Source of the DNA: Agrococcus sp. Marseille-P2731
GTDB taxonomy: Bacteria; Actinomycetota; Actinomycetes; Actinomycetales; Microbacteriaceae
Reading direction: 5' to 3'
NCBI RefSeq assembly: GCF_900117395.1
Contig: NZ_FPEG01000003.1
Location: forward strand, 124,001 to 188,000
DNA: 64,000 bases
Positions 21,181-31,134 of the stretch are shown here, in pieces. The notes under the pieces are model-generated. The model searched no databases, was not told the DNA's origin, and saw only the letters and a list, made by a program, of their open reading frames with translations. Position numbers and translations under genes: made by a program. Position 1 is the first letter of the stretch. Each line of letters begins with the position of its first letter.

Positions 21181-22776
21181 TCATGGGGCCAGCTCGCCGC
21201 GGCCCGGCGGAGTGCTCGCGGCGTCGAGCAAGGGCGTGACCAGCGCGACGAGCGCTGCCCGGTCGGGCTTGCGCATCCGCCCCCGCCTCGGCAGCGCGCC
21301 GATCGCGACGACCAGGTCTGGCAGCGCGCCGTGATCGATGAGGCCCGGCAGCGCGGCCGCGACGCGCCTCGCGAGCGGATGCGCGGGGTCGGGCACCAGC
21401 CCGTCGCGCGCGCCGCCGGTGCCACCTGAGGCGGGCACCACCGCGACCACGACGCGGTCGTCGCCGATCGCATCCGGCACCCCCACCATCGCCGCGTCGG
21501 CGACACCGGGCAGCGATGCGATGAGCGGCTCGTAGAGCCCGACGTAGATGTTCTGCGTGCCGCGCAGCAGCATGTCCTTCTTGCGGCCGAGCAGGGTGAG
21601 GCGGCCGTCGTCGATGCGGGCCAGGTCACCCGTGCGCACCTCTGCGAGCTCGTCGGGCAGCTCGTGCAGGTAGGCGCGCGCGAGGCCCGGGCCCGAGAGC
21701 ACCAGCTCGCCGTCGTCGATGCGGGCGTCGACGCTCGGCACGACGGCACCGACCAGATCGCCCGCGCTCGACGCGCGCAGCTTCTCGCGGCCGTCGGCGA
21801 TCGCGACCGGCAGGATCTCGCTCATCCCGTAGACGCAGCGGATGCGCGCCTGGGGGAACCGCGCGAGCGCGCGCTCGATGAGCGGCGGCAGCACCGGCGC
21901 CCCGCCGAGGGCGATGAGCTGCAGGCCGCCGGGCGCGGCACCCTGCTCGTCGAGGAGCCGCAGGATCGCGTCGAGCCCGCCGGGCGAGGCGAACACGGCT
22001 TCGGCGCGCTCGAGGTGGGGCAGGTAGCGCTCCGGCGAGGCACCCGGGTCCAGACCCGCGGGCGGCAGCGTCCAGTGGCTGCCGGCGATGAGCGCGGGGA
22101 TGCCGATCATGAGCTGGTCGGTGAGGAGCCGCAGCCCGGGCGTGAGGCCGAGCCCCGCGCGGATGTCGGCGAGGCCGGCGCCGAGCGACGCGAGCGTGTG
22201 CAGCACGGTCTTCGGCTCGCCCGTGGTGCCGGAGGTGAAGATCAGCAGCGCGTCGGCGTCCGCGTCGGCGGCCGGCAGCGCCCGCGGGCGGGTGCGCGCG
22301 AGCGCGTCGAGGCGATGCGCCCCCCGGGGCGAGCCTGGCAGGCTGCGGCCCGCGACGATGTGTCGGGCGTGCGGCAGCAGCTCGGCGTAGGCGGGCAGGT
22401 CGATGCCGCGGCTGCGCGCGACGCGGCGGAGGCCGGGGCTGGAGACGAGGTGCAGCAGCGACTCTGCGGCCGTCCACTGCGGCTGCGCGAGCGCGAGCCG
22501 GGCGGCGAGCAGCTCGGGCCCTGCGCCCAGGTCGACGAACGCGATCTGGCCGCCGGCGCGACAGATCGCGAGCGCGAGCACCACGGCGTCGATCGACGGC
22601 CGCACCGAGAACGCGACGCGGTCGCCCGGCCGCATGCCCGCATCCACGAGCCCCGTCGCGACCCGCTCGATGCGCTCGCCCAGGTCGCCGAAGCTCAGCG
22701 TCTGCCTGCCGGAGCTCAGCGCGGGGCGCCCCGCGTGCTCGCGGGTGGCGGCGAGCACGGCCTCGAGCATGCTCAC
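21181..22776 (-). CDS. AMP-forming acyl ligase (ANL superfamily), OleC-like
   Basis: 531 residues. The adenylating-enzyme core is clear: LLIFTSGTTGEPKTVLHT (P-loop; the usual Gly of PKG is Thr), CVYGMSEILPVA (aromatic-x-x-TE region), TGDLARIDDGRLTLLGRKKDM (ATP Asp and hinge). An early FVDLGAGPELLAARL segment and the MSEILP motif resemble beta-lactone synthetase OleC more than ordinary CoA ligases. The C-terminal motif LPRRGRMRKPDRAAL has Arg where the catalytic Lys (PxxxxGK) is expected. Start GTG at 22776 is chosen for GGAGG seven bases upstream and a GTGA overlap with the P450 gene. Last gene of the lipid operon; substrate unknown. Confidence 0.85.
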   Translation of the reverse strand: MSMLEAVLAATREHAGRPALSSGRQTLSFGDLGERIERVATGLVDAGMRPGDRVAFSVRPSIDAVVLALAICRAGGQIAFVDLGAGPELLAARLALAQPQWTAAESLLHLVSSPGLRRVARSRGIDLPAYAELLPHARHIVAGRSLPGSPRGAHRLDALARTRPRALPAADADADALLIFTSGTTGEPKTVLHTLASLGAGLADIRAGLGLTPGLRLLTDQLMIGIPALIAGSHWTLPPAGLDPGASPERYLPHLERAEAVFASPGGLDAILRLLDEQGAAPGGLQLIALGGAPVLPPLIERALARFPQARIRCVYGMSEILPVAIADGREKLRASSAGDLVGAVVPSVDARIDDGELVLSGPGLARAYLHELPDELAEVRTGDLARIDDGRLTLLGRKKDMLLRGTQNIYVGLYEPLIASLPGVADAAMVGVPDAIGDDRVVVAVVPASGGTGGARDGLVPDPAHPLARRVAAALPGLIDHGALPDLVVAIGALPRRGRMRKPDRAALVALVTPLLDAASTPPGRGELAP

Positions 22777-23981
22777 GGTCGGGCCTCCACGATCAGTCGG
22801 GCGTAGGCGGGCAGCAGCTGGCCGCGAGCGGGCGCGCGCTCGATGACGCGCAGCGTGCGGCCGGCCCGCTCGACGCTGCGCAGCGCCGCGAGCACCAGGC
22901 GGATCTCGGCCATCGCGAGCGGGGCGCCGATGCAGAAGTGCGCACCCGCGCCGAACCAGAGCTGCTTCAGCCCCGCCGCGCGATCGCTCGCGGGGTCGAA
23001 GCCGCCGGCAGCGCGGTCGGCGGCGTAGGTGAGGATGATGACGCGATCGCCGGGCGCGACCGCGACCGATCCGATCGTGCGGGCGACGAGGGTCGATCGC
23101 AGCATGACGGGGGTCGGCGTCGTCCATCGCAGCCCCTCGGCGATCGCCCGCTCGGCCGCCTCGTCGTCGACGACTTCCCGCAGCGTGCCGCTGTCGGCGA
23201 GCAGCGCTGCGATGCGCGGGATGGCCGCGGCGATCGTCTCGGTGCCCGTCAGCACGAACGCGCCGACCGCGCTGAGCGCCTCCTCCTCGCTGAGGCCGAG
23301 GCCGCGCAGGCGCCCGGGCACGGTCGACTCGTCGCCGCGGTAGGCAGCGGCCGCGTGCTCGCCGAGCGCGTCGAGCACCGCGCGGGCGCTCTTGACCTGC
23401 GCGGGGCGCAGCGTCGGCCGAGTGAGGCGCACCATGCCGGTGATGCCAGCGATCTGCTGGAACAGCCGATCGTCGACAGCCTCGCGCTCGAGCCCGACGA
23501 GCAGCGCGATCGCGGCGCTCGCCGAGCGCCGGGTGTGCGCGGCGAGATCGACGCGCTCGCCCGCGAGCAGGCTGCGCTCGAGCGCCGCCGCGCCCTCCCC
23601 CAGCGCCTGCTGCACGAGCGGCTCGACGAACGAGGGCGAGAAGATCGGCGCGAGCCTCCGCCGCAGGGTGCGGTGGTCGTCTCCATGCATGTTCAGCAGG
23701 ACGCTCGGGCCGAGCACCGGCGTCCACAGGTCGCTCGACGCGCCCTTGCCCTGCTTCGAGAACCCCTCGCCGTCGAGCAGCACCCGGCGGGCGAGCGCCG
23801 CGTCCTTGACGACGACGCCGAGGCCCGGCACGCGACGCACCGGCCCGCGCACGGCCTGCAGCAGCGGGTAGCCCACGGGGTGCACCGCACGCATGAGCCG
23901 CTCGTCGTGGCGCATCGCGAGCGCCAGAGCCTCCGCGCGGTCGGCGGAGGGGCGGTGGGCAGTGGCTCGGTCCGCGGTCAT
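22773..23981 (-). CDS. Cytochrome P450
   Basis: 402 residues, a soluble bacterial P450. The heme Cys is Cys350 in WFGAGAHFCIGAPLAMAEI; the I-helix Thr is in FVLTGTETIAAA; the K-helix EGLR provides ExxR. The N-terminal ~50 residues are longer than usual and hydrophilic. It needs ferredoxin and reductase partners, which are not in this operon. Overlaps the glycosyltransferase stop by four bases (ATGA) and the ligase start by four (GTGA), so it is made with them; oxidation of a fatty or polyketide-like chain is inferred from context. Confidence 0.93.
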   Translation of the reverse strand: MTADRATAHRPSADRAEALALAMRHDERLMRAVHPVGYPLLQAVRGPVRRVPGLGVVVKDAALARRVLLDGEGFSKQGKGASSDLWTPVLGPSVLLNMHGDDHRTLRRRLAPIFSPSFVEPLVQQALGEGAAALERSLLAGERVDLAAHTRRSASAAIALLVGLEREAVDDRLFQQIAGITGMVRLTRPTLRPAQVKSARAVLDALGEHAAAAYRGDESTVPGRLRGLGLSEEEALSAVGAFVLTGTETIAAAIPRIAALLADSGTLREVVDDEAAERAIAEGLRWTTPTPVMLRSTLVARTIGSVAVAPGDRVIILTYAADRAAGGFDPASDRAAGLKQLWFGAGAHFCIGAPLAMAEIRLVLAALRSVERAGRTLRVIERAPARGQLLPAYARLIVEARP

Positions 23982-24772
23982 CGGATGTCCACGTGCTCGG
24001 GCCGGTACGCGTGGTCCTTGTACCAGAGCAGCGTGTTCTTCAACCCCCACGCCTGCACCCGGCGCGACGAGCCGCGCACGACGACGTCCGAGCGCCGCGC
24101 GTAGTTGCCCGTCAGCCGCCGGACCGCGTTGACGAGCGCGCGATCCTCGTGCAGGTCCTCGATCGCGGTGCGCGGGAACCCGCCGCTCGCGACGTACATC
24201 GCGGCGGTGATCGCCACGTTGCAGCCGGGCGCCATCACGTAGGGACCGTGGAACTGCGGGCCGTTGTTGTCGGGCCTGACGACGCCGAACGCATCCGCGA
24301 TGTGCACCGCGCCCATCAGCAGCGCGCGGGTCACGGGCCCGAGCCCCTCGTCGTGCCGCGGCACGAGGCTGCCGGCGACGAGATCGAGCCCCAGGCCGCC
24401 CTGCTCGCGAGGCGTGAGGGCCTGGCGGATGCGCGCCGTCCAGTCGAGCCGCGGGATGCAGTCGGCGTCGGTGCGCGCGAGCATCGTCGCGCCGGCGGCG
24501 ATCGCGGCGCGCATGCCGGTGTCGGCAGCCGCGCCCGTGCCCTTCTGCGGCTCGTCGACGACGCGCCAGCGGCTGAGCCCCCGCGCAGCGGCGAAGGCCT
24601 CGATGACGGCGCGCGAGCCGTCGGTCGATGCGTTGTCGACGAAGACCGCGTCGAAGTCGGCGTCGCGCTGCGCGGCGAGCTGACGCAGCGTCGGGCCGAT
24701 GCCGCGCGCCTCGTCGAAGACCGGCACGACGACCGCGAGGCGCCCTGTCGCGGGGGCAGCGGCGCCGCTCAC
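23978..24772 (-). CDS. Family 2 glycosyltransferase
   Basis: 264 residues. GT-A fold: LAVVVPVFDEARGIGPTLRQL at the start, DAVFVDNASTDGS, and the metal/nucleotide site RTDADCIPRLDW (DxD). A downstream YVASGGFPRTAIEDLHED resembles the acceptor and catalytic Asp (ED) motif. No membrane segment, so it acts in the cytoplasm or at the membrane face. Start is GTG overlapping the upstream synthase stop (GTGA). Probably adds a sugar to the product of the operon; donor and acceptor are unknown. Confidence 0.87.
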   Translation of the reverse strand: MSGAAAPATGRLAVVVPVFDEARGIGPTLRQLAAQRDADFDAVFVDNASTDGSRAVIEAFAAARGLSRWRVVDEPQKGTGAAADTGMRAAIAAGATMLARTDADCIPRLDWTARIRQALTPREQGGLGLDLVAGSLVPRHDEGLGPVTRALLMGAVHIADAFGVVRPDNNGPQFHGPYVMAPGCNVAITAAMYVASGGFPRTAIEDLHEDRALVNAVRRLTGNYARRSDVVVRGSSRRVQAWGLKNTLLWYKDHAYRPEHVDIR

Positions 24773-27483
24773 AGCCGCACCGCCGCCGCGCCCAGGCTGA
24801 TGCCGCCGGCGAGGCCGACGAGCAGCACGAGGCTCCCGGGGCCGACGAGCCCCTCGTCGAGCGCCTGCCGCAGCTGGATCGGCAGGGTCGCCGACGCGAG
24901 GTTGCCGTGCAGCGCGACGGTCGGGAGGATGCGCTCGACACCGAGGCCGAGGCGCTCGGCGATCGGCGCGAGGTGCGGCTCTGCCACCTGGTGCATCAGC
25001 ACGAGGTCGACGTCGTCGAGCGCGATGCCGTTGCGGGCGAGGAGGCCCGTGACGAGCTCGGGCCCGAGCGCCATGAAGGCGCGCTGCAGCCCGCGTCCAT
25101 CGATGTCGAAGTAGGTCGCGTCCGGGTCGCGCGGGCGCATCGAGCCGCCCATCGGCAGCGTGCCGATCGACCAGTGGTGGCTCGCCGCCGAGAACGCGAG
25201 GTCGACGATGCCGCGGCCCTCGTCCTCCGGGGCGGCCTCGAGGATGAGCGCGGCACCCGCGTCGCTCATCGTGTAGCCGGGGAATGAGCGCACGAACTGG
25301 TGCCGGTCGGCGACCTGCCACCGCACCGCGCTCGTCGGCGTCTCGCCGCTCGCGATCAGCACGCGCCGCGCCTGGCCGCTCACGATGAGCGCCTGCGCGA
25401 CCTGCACGGCGTTCAGCACCGAGTTGCAGGCGTTCTTGACGTCGAAGACCGGCACGCCGAGGCCGAGCTTGTCGCTGACGATGTGCGAGGTGGCGGGCTC
25501 GATGAGATCCTGGCTCGCGCTCGCGAACACCAGCAGGTCGACGGGCTCGGGCGAGGCTTCGATCGCTCGCCGCGCCGCGTGCACCGCGAGGTCCGAGGCC
25601 TGCTCGCCCTCCTCGCGCTCGTGCACCCGGTCGACGCCCGTCATGCGGCGGATGAGCCCGACAGGCAGCAGCACGCCGGGGTTCTCGTCGCGCAGGCGCC
25701 GCTCGGTCTGCTCCGTGGTGCGGATGCGCGTCGCGAGCAGCGCCTGCACGCCGACGAGCCAGGCCGAGCGGATGAGCATCGTGAGCAGCACGCGGCCGTC
25801 GGACTCGCCGGAGGCGAAGACCCTGCTGCGGCTGCGCGCCAGCACGAGCGCGAGCGCCAGGGCACCGAGCCACAGGCCGATCGGCACGGCGATCGTCAGG
25901 ATGCGCGCCTCGCCGGTGGGCAGCGCGCCCTGCTCGGCGAGGTCGAAGCCGACCGGGTTGGTCGCGACGTCAGAGAGGTTCTCGAGCTCGCTGTCGCTCA
26001 GCTGCGGCAGGGCGTCGAGGCCTTCGCGCAGCCCCTCGGCGAGCTGCGTGCCACCGTCGCCCAGCTGCTCGGCGCCGGTCTGCGCCGAGCGCGCGCCAGC
26101 GGCCAGCTGCACGGCGCCCGACTCGAGCTCGCCGAGCCCGGTGCCGAGCTCGCGGGTGCCGTCAGCGAGCTGCTGCGCGCCGGCGACCGAGGCGCCGAAG
26201 CCGCCTTCGAGCTCGCCGAGTCCACCGGCGAGCTGGGAGGCGCCGTCGCGCAGCGCGGGCGAGCCGGCCGAGGCCTGCGCGGCGCCGTCGGCGAGCTGGG
26301 CAGCACCGTCGCGCACCCCGGCGCCTCCGGCGATGAGCTGCGACGCTCCTGCGCCGAGCTGGTCGAGCCCGCCGGTCGCCTCGCCCAGACCCGCCGCGAG
26401 CGAGCCCGCGATGTCCTGCTGGTCGAGCTGGCCGAGCCCTGCGGCGAGCTGCCGCGCCCCCTCGAGCGCCGCGGGGTCGGTGCCCGGGTCAGCCTCGAGG
26501 GCCGCGACGACCTGAGCTGCGGCCGACGCCGATGAGCCGATCGCGTCCTCGAGCTGGCCGATGCCGCCCGCCTCGATCGCCTGGTCGAGCCCGGCGCCGA
26601 TCTGCGAGGTCAGCTGCTGCACGCCGCCGGCGAACTGGTCGACGCCCGCGGTGTACCGGTCGATGCCGTCGCTCAGCTGCGCGGCGCCGCCTGCGAGCTG
26701 GTCGACGCCGCCGGTGTACTGCCCGATGCCGTCGCTGAGCGCGGCTCCACCGTCGGCGAGCTGGCCGATGCCCTGCTGCGCCGTGCCGAGGCCGGACGCG
26801 AGCTGATCGCCGCCGTCCGCGAGCTGCAGCGCACCGTCCTGGGCGCTGCCTGCGCCGTCGGCGAGCTGGTCGACGCCGCCGGCGATCTCGCCGATGCCGT
26901 CCGCGAGCTCCGTGCCGCCGTCGCCGAGCGCATCCGCGCCGTCGACGACCGCGCCCAGCTGCTCGGCCATCGTGCCCATGCCGCCATAGATGCCAGAGAT
27001 GAAGCCGCTCGTCACCACATCGCCGAAGGAGGCCATGATCGATTCGCCCGTCTCGGTCGCGAGGCTCGTCGCGAGACCGCTCGAGCTCGCGTCGGTGACG
27101 ATGCGGATGCCCGCCTGCTGCGGCTCGTCGCCCTGCAGGCTCAGCACGCGCTCGGAGAAGTCGTCGGGGATCGTGACGACGGCGCGCACGTCCCCGGCCG
27201 CGAGCGCCTCGGCCGCGTCCTCCTCGTTCAGGATCAGGAAGTCGAAGCCGTCCTCGTCGTCGGCGACCAGGTCGGTGACGACCTGTCGACCGGCGAACAT
27301 CGTCGACTCGGTGCCGTCCGCGGCCGTGGTCGTGATGATCTGATCGCTGTTCACGACCGCTGCCGTCACATCGCGCTCGCCGTCCACGGCGGGCCCGAGC
27401 GACCAGGCGGCGAACGCGGCGATCGCGAACGGGGTCGCGGCGGCCGCGGTGAGCGCGGCGGCCTTCGTGAGCGTGCTGGTCAT
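24769..27483 (-). CDS. In-frame fusion: truncated YhgE/Pip-like membrane protein joined to beta-ketoacyl synthase III (OleA/FabH-like)
   Basis: 904 residues in one uninterrupted frame. Residues 1-~540 look like YhgE/Pip: one N-terminal helix (~7-29), an extracellular domain, and many heptads of the type QLADG (~165-520). A helix follows (ILTIAVPIGLWLGALALALV) and the frame then enters the next helix and, at about residue 583, switches to a KAS III sequence (TTEQTERRLRDENPG). The rest of the YhgE membrane domain and the first ~10-40 residues of KAS III are absent. The thiolase-fold catalytic residues are intact: Cys686 (KNACNSVLN), His831 (LMHQVAEPH), Asn861 (LHGNLASA); their spacing (145 and 30) is close to OleA/FabH. 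Overlaps both neighbours by four bases. The enzyme part would face the cytoplasm only with suitable topology. A real fusion, a recent deletion, or an assembly error are all possible. Confidence 0.8.
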   Translation of the reverse strand: MTSTLTKAAALTAAAATPFAIAAFAAWSLGPAVDGERDVTAAVVNSDQIITTTAADGTESTMFAGRQVVTDLVADDEDGFDFLILNEEDAAEALAAGDVRAVVTIPDDFSERVLSLQGDEPQQAGIRIVTDASSSGLATSLATETGESIMASFGDVVTSGFISGIYGGMGTMAEQLGAVVDGADALGDGGTELADGIGEIAGGVDQLADGAGSAQDGALQLADGGDQLASGLGTAQQGIGQLADGGAALSDGIGQYTGGVDQLAGGAAQLSDGIDRYTAGVDQFAGGVQQLTSQIGAGLDQAIEAGGIGQLEDAIGSSASAAAQVVAALEADPGTDPAALEGARQLAAGLGQLDQQDIAGSLAAGLGEATGGLDQLGAGASQLIAGGAGVRDGAAQLADGAAQASAGSPALRDGASQLAGGLGELEGGFGASVAGAQQLADGTRELGTGLGELESGAVQLAAGARSAQTGAEQLGDGGTQLAEGLREGLDALPQLSDSELENLSDVATNPVGFDLAEQGALPTGEARILTIAVPIGLWLGALALALVLARSRSRVFASGESDGRVLLTMLIRSAWLVGVQALLATRIRTTEQTERRLRDENPGVLLPVGLIRRMTGVDRVHEREEGEQASDLAVHAARRAIEASPEPVDLLVFASASQDLIEPATSHIVSDKLGLGVPVFDVKNACNSVLNAVQVAQALIVSGQARRVLIASGETPTSAVRWQVADRHQFVRSFPGYTMSDAGAALILEAAPEDEGRGIVDLAFSAASHHWSIGTLPMGGSMRPRDPDATYFDIDGRGLQRAFMALGPELVTGLLARNGIALDDVDLVLMHQVAEPHLAPIAERLGLGVERILPTVALHGNLASATLPIQLRQALDEGLVGPGSLVLLVGLAGGISLGAAAVRL

Positions 27484-30449
27484 CGGTCTGCTCCCGTGGT
27501 CGCGAGATCCCCGCTCGGGGTCCCGCTGTCGGTCGATCGGTCGTCGTTCGAGGTGGTGGCGGATGCGGCGCCAGCGGCCGCGCGCGCGGCCTCGGCAGCG
27601 CGCGCCTCGGCAGCGCGCTCCTCAGCGGCAGCATCCGCAGGCGTGAGCTCGAGCGTCGCCCGCCCGTGCGCCTCGGGCGAGGGCTCGCTCGTGACGATCG
27701 TGAGGTCGTCGCCGCCCAGGCGAGCCGCGAGCGCCGCAGCGCCGGTCGGGGCGCCGGTCGCGGCGTCGATCCAGACGAGGCTCGGCGTGCGCTCGAGCGC
27801 GATGGCGAGCAGCACGGCCGCGCGCTCCAGCGGCGCGAGTCGCGCGAGCGGCGCCGCAGCGTCGATCGCGGTGCCCGCGGCCGAGCTCGCGCGCTCGACG
27901 AGCGCCGCTGCCCGCGCATCGAGCACGTGGCCGACCGCGAAGGGCGAGCGCAGCGCCAGTGCGGACCGCGCCGCCTGGTGCGCCGATTCGACGTGCCCGT
28001 CCAGGTCGACGAGCGCGATGCGGTCGCGCAGCGTGGCGACGTCGCCGGGCAGCGCCGCCCCGCCGAGGTGGGCGCGCCCCTCGGCGCCGACGTCGCCCAG
28101 CAGCGCGTGCGCGAGCCGCTGACGATCGGCGAAGGGTCCGTCGAGGCGCACGACCGCGCCGCGCGGTGCCGTGATCGTCCAGGAGGCGCTGCCGGGCTCG
28201 TCGTGGCCGAGCTCTGGTCGCAGGCGCTCGAGCGCGAGGTGACCGCCCGCATCCGTCGCCCACGCGAGGGCTGCCCGGTGCCGGCCCAGGCTCTCGCCCT
28301 CGACGTCCATGTCGGGCATCGCGCGGTCGAGCCACTTCGGCAGCCACCAGGCGCGCTCGCCCATGAGCGTCATGAGCGCCGGGATCAGCGTCATGCGCAC
28401 GAGGAAGGCGTCGACCGCCACTCCGACCGCGAGGCCGAGCGCGATCGCCTTGATCATCGCCATGCCCTCCGGCACGAACGCGAAGAAGACGAAGAACATG
28501 ATGAGCGCAGCCGCCGTGACGACGCGGGCATTCGCGGCGAAGCCGTGGCGCACCGCGTCGATCGCCCGATCGGGGTCGGAGGCGCGCCCGTGGGCGTAGG
28601 CCTCGCGCATGCCGGAGACGAGGAACATCTGGTAGTCCATCGCGAGGCCGAACAGCACCGCCATCAGCAGCACCGGCATGAACGACAGGATCGGCCCGGG
28701 CTCCGCGTGCAGCAGCTCGATGCCCCGGCCCCACTGCATGACCGCGACGACGGTGCCGAAGGCGGCGAGCACCGAGCCGAGGAAGCCGAGCGCGGCCGTG
28801 ATCGGCACGAGGATCGAGCGGAACACGAGCATGAGCAGCACGATCGCGAGCGAGACGACCACGGCGCCGAAGGGCAGCAGCGCGTCGGCGAGGCGCGCAG
28901 AGACGTCGATCTGCACGGCCGTCGCACCCGTCACCGCGATGGGCGTGTCGTGCGCGGCCTCGAGCGCGGGGGCGGCGTCGCGGATGCGCTGCACGAGCTC
29001 TGCGGTCGCGTGATCGGTGGGGCCGGTCTCGGCGATGACCTGCACGATCGCGGTGTCGGCGGTCTCGTCGGGATAGGCGCTGCCGATGCGCTCGACGCCC
29101 TCGATCTCGGCGAGGTCGTCGGAGAGCTCGTCGAGCACGCCCATGATGTCGGTGACCTGCGTGATGTCCGCCATCACGACGAGCGGTCCGGTCGAGCCGT
29201 CGCCGAAGCCCTCCTGCAGCATGTCGTAGGCCATCCGCTGCGTCGTGCCCTGGGCCTCCCGCCCGTTGTCGGGCAGTGCGAGCTCGAGGCTCGCGGCAGG
29301 CACGGATGCGACGCCCACGACCGCGAGCACGGCGAGGATCGCGACCCAGGGCCGCTTCGCGACGCCGGTGACCCAGCGCATGCCGAGGGTCGGCTGCGCA
29401 TCGACGTCGCGCTCGGCGAGGCGCGCGGCGCGACCGCCGGGCTTCGGGCGCAGGCGCTCGCCCAGCAGCGCCATGATCGCCGGGAGCAGCGTCGCGGCGG
29501 CGGCGACGGCGATCGCGACCGAGACGGCCGCGCCGATGCCCATCACCGACAGGAACGGGATGCCGACGATCAGCAGGCCCGTGAGGGCGACGATGACGGT
29601 GAGGCCCGCGAAGAGCACGGCGGTGCCCGCGGTGCCGACCGCGAGCGACCCGGATTCGATGACGCCCATGCCGCGGGCGAGCTGCGATCGGTGCTTCGAG
29701 AGGATGAAGAGCGCGTAGTCGATGCCGACGGCGAGGCCGATCATGAGCGCCATGAGCGGCGCCGAGTTCGACACGGTCACGAGCGCGGATGCCGCGAGCA
29801 CCCCGCCCATCGTGATGCCGACGCCGACGAGCGCGGTGATGAGCGGCAGGCCGGCGGCGAGCAGCGACCAGAAGGTGACGAACAGCACGATGCCGGCGAA
29901 GAGCACGCCGAGGCCCTCGACCCAGGAGATCGGCACGCTCGTGGCCTGGAACGCCTGCCCCCCGAACTCGACCGTCAGGCCCGACGCGCGCGCCGCATCC
30001 GCCGTCGCCACCAGCTCGTCGACGCCTGCGGGCGCCGCGCTCGAGCCGCTCGGCTCGAACTGCACCTGCGCGAAGGCGTAGCGGCCGTCGTCGGAGATCT
30101 GATCGGCGGCGAACTCATCCCAGGGGCCGAGCGCCGTGGCGATGTCGTCGATCTCGGCGATCTCGGCGACCTGCGTCTCGATGACGTCGCGGAACTGCTC
30201 GACCTGCTCGCCCTCGGGCGCGGCGTAGACGACCTGCACGGCCGAGCCCGCGACCTGCGGGAAGACGCTCGAGAGGCGATCGAGCGCCTGCTGCGACTCG
30301 GTGCCGGGGATGTCGAAGGACTCCTGCATGTTCGGGCCGAGCGCCAGCGCGCCGCCCAGCACGCCGCCGAGGGCGAGCACCCAGGCGATGATGACGAACC
30401 ATGCGCGGCGCATCGAGGCTGCGCCGACGCGGGAGAGCCAGGTGGCCAT
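27480..30449 (-). CDS. MMPL-family lipid/hydrophobe exporter with C-terminal degenerate ABC-ATPase-like domain
   Basis: 989 residues. Residues 1-~740 are a two-lobed MMPL/RND transporter, each lobe with one helix, an extracytoplasmic domain and five more helices; GLAVGIDYALFILSKHR and FGLAMDYQMFLVSGMREAY are the paired Asp-Tyr motifs of the proton path. Residues ~760-960 resemble an ABC ATPase that has lost its Walker A lysine: GPFADRQRLAHALLG stands where GPNGxGKST would be, and LARLAPLERAAVLLAIALE then SLVWIDAATG mimic the signature and Walker B. A low-complexity tail ends the protein. The ATG shares a base with the tetR stop. MMPL proteins commonly export lipids in actinobacteria, which suits this operon. 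Confidence 0.88.
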   Translation of the reverse strand: MATWLSRVGAASMRRAWFVIIAWVLALGGVLGGALALGPNMQESFDIPGTESQQALDRLSSVFPQVAGSAVQVVYAAPEGEQVEQFRDVIETQVAEIAEIDDIATALGPWDEFAADQISDDGRYAFAQVQFEPSGSSAAPAGVDELVATADAARASGLTVEFGGQAFQATSVPISWVEGLGVLFAGIVLFVTFWSLLAAGLPLITALVGVGITMGGVLAASALVTVSNSAPLMALMIGLAVGIDYALFILSKHRSQLARGMGVIESGSLAVGTAGTAVLFAGLTVIVALTGLLIVGIPFLSVMGIGAAVSVAIAVAAAATLLPAIMALLGERLRPKPGGRAARLAERDVDAQPTLGMRWVTGVAKRPWVAILAVLAVVGVASVPAASLELALPDNGREAQGTTQRMAYDMLQEGFGDGSTGPLVVMADITQVTDIMGVLDELSDDLAEIEGVERIGSAYPDETADTAIVQVIAETGPTDHATAELVQRIRDAAPALEAAHDTPIAVTGATAVQIDVSARLADALLPFGAVVVSLAIVLLMLVFRSILVPITAALGFLGSVLAAFGTVVAVMQWGRGIELLHAEPGPILSFMPVLLMAVLFGLAMDYQMFLVSGMREAYAHGRASDPDRAIDAVRHGFAANARVVTAAALIMFFVFFAFVPEGMAMIKAIALGLAVGVAVDAFLVRMTLIPALMTLMGERAWWLPKWLDRAMPDMDVEGESLGRHRAALAWATDAGGHLALERLRPELGHDEPGSASWTITAPRGAVVRLDGPFADRQRLAHALLGDVGAEGRAHLGGAALPGDVATLRDRIALVDLDGHVESAHQAARSALALRSPFAVGHVLDARAAALVERASSAAGTAIDAAAPLARLAPLERAAVLLAIALERTPSLVWIDAATGAPTGAAALAARLGGDDLTIVTSEPSPEAHGRATLELTPADAAAEERAAEARAAEAARAAAGAASATTSNDDRSTDSGTPSGDLATTGADR

Positions 30450-31087
30450 CAGGCGTCCTTCCCTTCGGTGGTGGCGCTCGCGGCGCCAGCGGTGTTCGCT
30501 GCGACGGTCGCGGCGGGGTCGTGCTCTGCCGGCAGCGGCGGGCACAGGTCGACGATCGTGTCGATCAGCACGCGGCGCTTGAGCTCGCGGTCGAACTCCG
30601 GCACGTCATCGCGCTCGGCCTCGCCGATCAGGAAGGCGGCGCCCGCGAGCCCGATCGAGAGGCGCATGACCTCCGGAGTGGCGGATGCCTCGGCGATGAG
30701 CACCTCTGCCATGCGGTTCACGAGAGCGTTGGCGCGCCCGATCACCGGCACGTCGAGCAGAGCGCCACGCTGGCTGACGAAGATCGTGACCGCGCGCGCA
30801 TGCGCCTGCAGCAGGTCGACGAAGACGGTGACGAGCGACACGAGGTCGTCGCGGCTGAAGGCGTGGTGCTGGTCGCTCGTGGGCACCTGCTGCAGCAGCG
30901 ACTCGAGCGCGTCGAGCGCCGGCGCCATCGCGGCCTCCAGCAGCGACTCCTTCGAGTCGAAGTGGTAGAGCACCGAGGACTTCGAGGTGCCGACCGCGTC
31001 GGCGATCTGCTGGATCGAGGTGCCGAGGTAGCCGTAGCGGGCGAAGCGCTCGAGCGCCGCTTCGAGGATCGTGTCGCGGGTGGTCAC
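30449..31087 (-). CDS. TetR family regulator of the lipid operon
   Basis: 212 residues. HTH at residues ~1-50 (TRDTILEAALERFARYGYLGT ... IADAVGTSKSSVLYHFDSKESLL), recognition helix SKSSVLYHF; the C-terminal ligand domain ends in a Thr/Ala-rich tail. Starts with GTG (31085-31087), eight bases after TACAGT. First gene of a six-gene overlapping operon; two palindromes just upstream indicate autoregulation that would also control all downstream genes. The inducer is probably a hydrophobic molecule, as for most TetR proteins next to MMPL exporters. Confidence 0.9.
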   Translation of the reverse strand: MTTRDTILEAALERFARYGYLGTSIQQIADAVGTSKSSVLYHFDSKESLLEAAMAPALDALESLLQQVPTSDQHHAFSRDDLVSLVTVFVDLLQAHARAVTIFVSQRGALLDVPVIGRANALVNRMAEVLIAEASATPEVMRLSIGLAGAAFLIGEAERDDVPEFDRELKRRVLIDTIVDLCPPLPAEHDPAATVAANTAGAASATTEGKDA

Positions 31088-31101: not shown

Positions 31102-31117
31102 CTGACCGATCGGTCAG
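31102..31117. promoter_or_regulatory. TetR operator 1
   Basis: Perfect 16-bp palindrome CTGACCGATCGGTCAG, abutting the -10 box of the operon. It has the typical ACCGATCGGT core of TetR-family sites. Confidence 0.8.
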
Positions 31118-31122
31118 AGTTC

Positions 31123-31134
31123 GACCGATCGGTC
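31123..31134. promoter_or_regulatory. TetR operator 2
   Basis: Perfect 12-bp palindrome GACCGATCGGTC with the same core as operator 1; centres are 19 bp apart (about two helical turns), covering the -35 region. Suits two dimers bound side by side. Confidence 0.78.

Follow-up and report, generated by a model that had tools for sequence, protein, structure and literature searches.

We show that six adjacent minus-strand open reading frames at positions 21181-31087 of a 64,000-nucleotide stretch of Agrococcus sp. Marseille-P2731 (contig NZ_FPEG01000003.1, positions 124,001 to 188,000; hereafter the window), which run from a tetR gene (31087) to the gene of an ANL adenylating enzyme or ligase (21181), comprise two modules that related genomes carry as separate gene sets. 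Our best explanation, to which we assign a probability of about 0.7, is that an independent transporter operon is followed by a probably impaired, reductase-less copy of a published cassette for which we found no product, built around an OleA-type β-ketoacyl-acyl carrier protein synthase III (KAS III), and that a deletion or an assembly error joins the two.

The window has a GC content of 73%, and the genome amounts to 3.02 Mb in three contigs. A sequence-only reading had described the six genes as a single transcriptional and translational unit for the synthesis and export of a lipid. The short overlaps on which it relied are present in the window sequence: tetR and mmpl share 1 bp (30449), while mmpl and the YhgE::KAS frame (27480-27483), that frame and the glycosyltransferase gene (24769-24772), the latter and the cytochrome P450 gene (23978-23981), and the P450 and ANL genes (22773-22776) share 4 bp each. 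Its family labels likewise agree with the Pfam and NCBIfam matches, namely TetR_N, MMPL, a YhgE/Pip N-terminus with ACP_syn_III, Glycos_transf_2, p450 and AMP-binding. A consensus scan for sigma-70-type promoters and terminators, which is weakly informative at this GC content, found none at the operon. The features of the locus, in window positions, are the following.

31123-31134, no strand: 12-bp palindrome, copy 2 of a putative TetR operator (window motif scan and conservation in relatives)
31104-31115, no strand: 12-bp palindrome GACCGATCGGTC, copy 1 of the putative TetR operator (window motif scan and conservation in relatives)
30449-31087, minus strand: TetR-family regulator, module 1 (PF00440, E=2.5e-15)
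27480-30449, minus strand: MMPL transporter with a degenerate ABC-ATPase-like C-terminal domain, module 1 (PF03176, E=1.1e-81)
25732-27483, minus strand: truncated YhgE, inner boundary approximate, module 1 (TIGR03061, TIGR03057)
25728-25735, minus strand: deletion junction (blastn against five relatives, and alignments)
24769-25731, minus strand: OleA-type KAS III without its first ~16 residues, outer boundary approximate, module 2 (PF08545/PF08541)
23978-24772, minus strand: family 2 glycosyltransferase (GT2), module 2 (PF00535, E=1.1e-14)
22773-23981, minus strand: cytochrome P450, module 2 (PF00067, E=1.4e-10)
21181-22776, minus strand: ANL adenylating enzyme, module 2 (PF00501, E=2.9e-41)

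The junction between YhgE and KAS III

The cassette KAS is present in 10 of 24 Agrococcus genomes (E<=1e-40), and six of the nine besides the window's have tetR-mmpl-yhgE upstream of it. In all six relatives that have both, yhgE and kas are distinct genes without overlap, at distances of 40, 65, 305, 310, 620 and 3010 bp; the full-length YhgE proteins have 727-739 residues and the separate KAS proteins 335-360. A YhgE::KAS fusion was found in none of the nine other Agrococcus genomes with a cassette KAS.

In blastn comparisons with five relatives, the upstream side of the junction corresponds to the relatives' yhgE and the downstream side to their KAS, with the switch near 25731, and the alignments of the two flanks overlap by 0, 3, 3, 6 and 8 bp. 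The window is 542 bp shorter than L025 and 529 bp shorter than L026, which have the shortest spacers, and the difference is larger for the other three, whose spacers are longer. About 147 YhgE residues, the spacer and about 16 KAS residues are missing, so that the window KAS is incomplete, with YhgE sequence in place of its first residues. The window YhgE keeps its N-terminal part (TIGR03061, 83.4 bits, cut-off 96.15) and its heptad repeats, which match TIGR03057, and lacks the C-terminal multi-pass membrane domain, the relatives' proteins extending for some 150 residues more. We take this lost part to be the permease domain, judging from its hydrophobic sequence and from general knowledge of the family.

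These comparisons point to an event of about 0.53 kb, confined to the source genome, in which a deletion or an assembly error took away the last part of yhgE together with the first codons of kas, leaving the remainder in a single reading frame. YhgE has thereby lost its permease domain and KAS its N-terminus, and the pathway is probably impaired here and intact in relatives. The natural YhgE::KAS fusion that the sequence-only reading had assumed was rejected on the separate genes of the relatives and gives way to a deletion junction.

Independence of the transporter module

In related genomes the same genes form two compact sets, tetR-mmpl-yhgE and kas-gt2-p450-anl, within each of which neighbours overlap or nearly do, as judged from gene starts of our own calling. 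The single unit therefore holds for the window sequence alone, since the YhgE::KAS frame is peculiar to the source genome; the overlaps that suggested it are real, but in kin the two sets lie 40-3010 bp apart.

The two sets also assort independently. When MMPL is counted by its C-terminal domain alone, and with incomplete genomes included, 16 of the 24 Agrococcus genomes have MMPL and 10 have the cassette KAS: 7 carry both, 9 MMPL only and 3 the cassette only. Moreover, searches by similarity to the window proteins found no relatives of TetR, MMPL or YhgE at any of 59 fetched KAS loci outside Agrococcus (20 at family, 19 at order and 20 at class level; 34 with the four-gene cassette; L072 and L073 covered by tblastn only). 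Independent assortment and the absence of these genes from the 59 loci together indicate two independent modules. On these grounds MMPL, YhgE and TetR were rejected as members of the pathway, and the same observations run counter to the proposal that MMPL exports its product.

The region upstream of tetR is consistent with this division. The palindrome occurs there in two exact copies spaced 19 bp apart, in the window as in all six relatives, and there is no copy between yhgE and kas. Allowing up to one mismatch, a scan of the window returned just these two matches, against a chance expectation of 0.75, and 16 of 100 shuffled sequences reached two; the pair is therefore not significant in the window alone, and the claim rests on its conservation in relatives. 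This pattern fits an autoregulated transporter operon in which TetR probably binds to the double palindrome that lies upstream of tetR.

Distribution of the KAS-GT2-P450-ligase cassette

A family-level search found KAS in 25 of 299 genomes, spread over 14 of 85 genera (E<=1e-50), an order-level search in 23 of 396 genomes (19 of them new), and a class-level search in 32 of 394 at E<=1e-60 (27 new, of which 20 were fetched). All 10 Agrococcus genomes with KAS have the four-gene set, the ligase match of L027 starting at residue 114. The 20 hits in other Microbacteriaceae comprise 12 loci ordered KAS-GT2-P450-ANL, one of which (L060) has an additional open reading frame between KAS and GT2, six loci of another type, which have a PaaK-like enzyme, and two cut by contig ends. 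At the order level, the 19 new genomes contribute 10 four-gene loci, three loci with a PaaK-like enzyme and six canonical oleA-oleBC-oleD clusters; the KAS of L111 was taken from the order-level search, and L113 has an opposite-strand open reading frame ahead of its ligase. The 20 class-level loci include 12 with four genes, seven of them in the window order with a reductase and five ordered KAS-GT2-ANL-P450; of the latter, four have a reductase call and one, L174, has an additional GT2-like gene. Two others have KAS and ANL only, three (L169, L176 and L177) lie beside OleC-, OleD- and OleB-like genes, and three have none of these.

GT2 directly follows KAS in nearly all four-gene loci. From its recurrence and gene order, KAS-GT2-P450-ligase is a conserved actinomycete cassette whose order is kept across several families, which bears out the earlier association of GT2 and P450 with the KAS and the ligase. 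The same domain set is annotated on the linear plasmid pKVP2 of Streptomyces viridifaciens (CP090842.1), with KAS III, GT2, acyl-CoA (acyl-coenzyme A) ligase, P450 and oxidoreductase; a lectin-domain gene lies upstream of these five. Another Streptomyces match (L024) was set aside as a distant KAS III (24%) without the other cassette genes.

A second P450 gene on the opposite strand lies beside the cassette in L054, L055, L059, L060, L062, L063, L065, L108, L110, L111, L114, L115 and L161, and also in the Agrococcus locus L027. Its product is 33-36% identical to the cassette P450 in the Microbacteriaceae loci, and it is not among the genes called around the window operon.

The missing reductase and the olefin cluster

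An OleD-like reductase gene was called after the four genes in 34 of 44 four-gene loci, with 4/10 in Agrococcus, 11/12 in other Microbacteriaceae, 8/10 at the order level and 11/12 at the class level. Outside Agrococcus, 30 of 34 loci have one; L112 and L118 are the order-level loci without it, and for the one such Microbacteriaceae locus (L072) gene calls were unavailable. For each of the three reductases examined, OleD is the best NCBIfam model (E=1.5e-33, 2.8e-29 and 1.2e-39), with scores under its cut-off in all cases. Within Agrococcus, the reductase is missing in the window, L020, L021, L022, L025 and L026 and present in L019 (the A. sediminis locus), L023, L027 and L028. A search for a remnant after the window ligase found nothing convincing, the best match in the window being 45 residues long (E=0.007) and antisense to another gene.

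As the sequence-only reading had stated, the window operon contains no OleB, OleBC or OleD, and the lack of OleD is common to the window and five other Agrococcus loci. The same genome nevertheless carries, on contig C1, a complete canonical olefin cluster at 1139931-1144853 (L084:5932-10854), consisting of oleA (340 residues), an oleBC fusion (972 residues; 1140950-1143865) and oleD (323 residues), so oleB is not absent from the genome. Overall, oleBC is found in 18 of the 24 Agrococcus genomes. All six genomes with a reductase-less cassette, A. baldri being one such species, have oleBC and an adjacent OleD relative elsewhere, as against oleBC in one of the four whose cassette includes a reductase (of the three lacking it at E<=1e-60, one, G022, is 86% complete). 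The canonical OleD may stand in for the missing cassette reductase.

Enzymes of the cassette and a proposed pathway

The window KAS has the glutamate equivalent to OleA Glu117, together with the cysteine, histidine and asparagine, at residues 662, 686, 831 and 861 of the fused protein. These four residues are found in 62 of 62 aligned KAS and OleA sequences (the window's and the oleBC-linked OleA included), whereas the FabH of the same genome has threonine at the glutamate position. Glu117, followed by proline, is the second catalytic base of OleA, according to PMC7064751, and the Xanthomonas KAS III structure 3fk5 also has Glu-Pro at this position. By these sequence features the window KAS is OleA-type, as had been proposed; by score alone it is equally near FabH and OleA. 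In the KAS tree, the nine oleBC-linked OleA proteins fall outside the 98-supported set that contains the cassette KAS, on long branches and with a root that we do not trust. Rooting on FabH (37 of the 63 rows) was rejected, as it introduced a very long branch.

The ligase is an ANL enzyme, as first labelled. It scores 81.5 bits against the OleC model (cut-off 900), and a tree of 35 selected rows groups the cassette ligases in a clade of their own (support 99), next to that of OleC (98). The tree gives no support to a canonical OleC, without excluding it, and with five other ligases as reference it does not decide on β-lactone closure. GT2 is 43-90% identical across 28 aligned relatives and has only weak generic matches in a search of the PDB, with no close solved relative; the window P450 matches bacterial P450s in general. 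The P450, GT2 and Walker motifs were read with their customary meanings.

From these features we infer the following pathway, in which the roles given to OleA, OleC and OleD are those described in PMC7064751. The OleA-type KAS would catalyse the condensation of two fatty acyl-CoAs, giving a 2-alkyl-3-keto acid, which an OleD-type reductase would convert to a 2-alkyl-3-hydroxy acid. The ANL enzyme would adenylate this acid and probably close a β-lactone, the P450 would hydroxylate a chain, and GT2 would add a sugar to that hydroxyl. In the window, this cassette lies head to tail with the transporter module.

Relation to described systems

The sequence-only reading knew of no described cluster with this composition, a claim overtaken by a report on Actinoplanes atraurantiacus. 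According to that paper (PMC7064751, 2020), the region encodes OleA, OleC and OleD together with a glycosyltransferase and a P450; its OleA was active in a colour assay, and the proposed product is a hydroxylated, glycosylated β-lactone. This region and the window have in common the domain set, an OleA-type thiolase with Glu-Pro and the lack of OleB in the cluster. They differ in that the window is ordered KAS-GT2-P450-ANL, has no reductase at the locus, has a KAS that is truncated at its N-terminus and fused to YhgE, and belongs to a genome with oleB in the form of oleBC. The Actinoplanes order KAS-GT2-ANL-P450, as given there, is that of pKVP2 and of the five class-level loci. Since the region of PMC7064751 and pKVP2 both display it, the composition is not new; the Agrococcus form without the reductase and the junction represent variants of a published cassette. 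Among open-licence papers in PubMed Central, we found neither a product for the cassette nor a description of it in Microbacteriaceae.

Two other systems share some of its parts. The canonical oleA-oleBC-oleD cluster (Micrococcales type, as in L084) resembles it in an OleA-type KAS that has these four residues too and in an OleD-like reductase, but it differs in its OleB-OleC fusion, in the lack of GT2 and P450, and in an ANL enzyme of a separate clade. Loci with a PaaK-like enzyme, KAS and P450 (L066-L071, L106, L107 and L109) have an OleD-like reductase called in 8 of 9, and in L066-L071 the KAS is 56-60% identical to the window's. These loci have no GT2 match, and a PaaK/F390-synthetase-like enzyme (TIGR02304, checked in L066) replaces the ANL ligase. 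In six of them an alcohol dehydrogenase gene and a nitrilase-like gene come after the PaaK-like enzyme, reductase, KAS and P450. As for the transporter, the best NCBIfam match of the window MMPL is the trehalose-monomycolate exporter MmpL3 (NF052608, 159.5 bits), from which it differs in a score far under the cut-off of 1400 bits, a degenerate ABC-ATPase-like C-terminus and no consistent linkage to the cassette.

Alternative explanations

It could be argued that the six genes form one working operon, in which YhgE::KAS III is a membrane-tethered synthase and MMPL exports a glycolipid. The overlaps of 1-4 bp, the shared strand and the in-frame junction speak for this view, as do the gaps of just 40-65 bp between yhgE and kas in two relatives, where co-transcription would be possible, and an AlphaFold model of the fused KAS half (six-row alignment, mean pLDDT, a per-residue confidence score, of 65) in which the thiolase fold is predicted to be kept. 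However, the fusion occurs in none of the nine relatives with KAS and costs YhgE its permease domain and KAS some of its residues, and MMPL and the cassette are independent, with no module 1 relatives at the 59 loci outside the genus. We therefore regard a six-gene operon as very improbable.

A different matter is whether the junction exists in the living strain, which could carry separate, intact yhgE and kas genes if the junction were an amplification or assembly chimera. This is one form of our best explanation rather than its competitor, and we rate it as a serious candidate at somewhat less than even odds. An artefact is possible because the same assembly has, on contig C3 (L192:1993-20000), a perfect inverted repeat whose two arms, each at least 9004 bp long, abut directly and which resembles an assembly artefact, and a marker contamination of 7.69%, for which this repeat could account. 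The repeat holds what we presume to be hut-like genes and a type III polyketide synthase-like gene set, each twice. The few bases by which the two flank alignments overlap would also suit a chimera, but small short-homology deletions arise naturally as well, the reading frame is retained, and repeats of at least 200 bp are absent from the window. Furthermore, the missing YhgE segment was not recovered elsewhere in the genome, in a search that had no positive control.

Selection on the window genes bears on the same point. By Nei-Gojobori counts, the ratio of nonsynonymous to synonymous differences per site (pN/pS) of the window ligase averages 0.33 versus 0.27 in other pairs, and those of MMPL and YhgE are also slightly higher. 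Decay of these genes was rejected, as relaxed selection is not clear, and the event would therefore be recent, harmless or not real. The absence of relaxation in the window KAS, which also favours a chimera, is compatible with a recent deletion, with an artefact and with retained function.

Several observations weigh against an impaired copy joined to an independent transporter operon. The pN/pS of the window KAS is slightly lower than in other pairs (0.26 vs 0.28), and the KAS model has the YhgE remnant serve as the missing first strand; since the modelled protein still folds, a loss of KAS activity is not certain. The window ANL enzyme lies outside the canonical OleC clade, and among the ligases of the genome it is matched best by an ordinary acyl-CoA-ligase-like protein rather than by OleC, so β-lactone closure by this enzyme is a tentative assignment. 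The complementarity of cassette reductase and oleD rests on 10 related genomes and is a lead only. Finally, the co-occurrence count draws on the MMPL C-terminus and takes in incomplete genomes; two of the nine MMPL-only matches contain an internal stop.

The chemistry of the intact cassette could also take another course, in which the ANL enzyme would activate the 2-alkyl-3-hydroxy acid as an acyl-adenylate (acyl-AMP) or acyl-CoA, leading to a sugar ester or glycoside, a mycolate-like glycolipid, with no β-lactone. The separation of the cassette ligases from OleC, the occurrence, at related loci, of a different, PaaK-like adenylating enzyme close to KAS and P450, and the position of GT2 next after KAS are all in line with this route. 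However, specialists read a region with these five domains as a β-lactone cluster (PMC7064751), and the cassette is without an acyltransferase; we consider the glycolipid unlikely, if worth keeping in view. More doubtful still is the idea that the cassette represents a third OleA-initiated branch, common among actinomycetes, towards an oxidised, glycosylated 2-alkyl-3-hydroxy-acid (mycolate-like) lipid rather than an olefin or plain β-lactone, and that some Agrococcus, after losing the cassette reductase, borrow OleD from the olefin pathway. If so, two lipid pathways would share one enzyme.

OleA-initiated pathways yield membrane hydrocarbons and bioactive β-lactones. Since the cassette recurs with conserved GT2 and P450 and yet no product was found in open-licence papers, the intact cassettes of Agrococcus and of Streptomyces relatives emerge as targets for a new lipid. 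The window also illustrates how a single small deletion or assembly error can mimic an in-frame fusion and a six-gene operon.

Further observations on the transporter module

The regulator of the transporter module is highly variable, with 57-83% identity to the window's TetR and, among the pairs listed, dN/dS values (ratios of nonsynonymous to synonymous substitution rates) of up to ~0.87, while the palindromes are unchanged. These sequences suggest a mixture of two tetR allele types across strains.

The C-terminus of MMPL (27480-28352, ~290 residues) is predicted to adopt an ABC-transporter ATPase fold in a model of modest confidence (mean pLDDT 59.6), whose best PDB match is 5xu1_B (E=2.8e-07). 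The Walker A motif is absent in all seven Agrococcus copies. With modest confidence, this domain reads as a pseudo-ATPase fused to MMPL, beside the ABC2-type YhgE.

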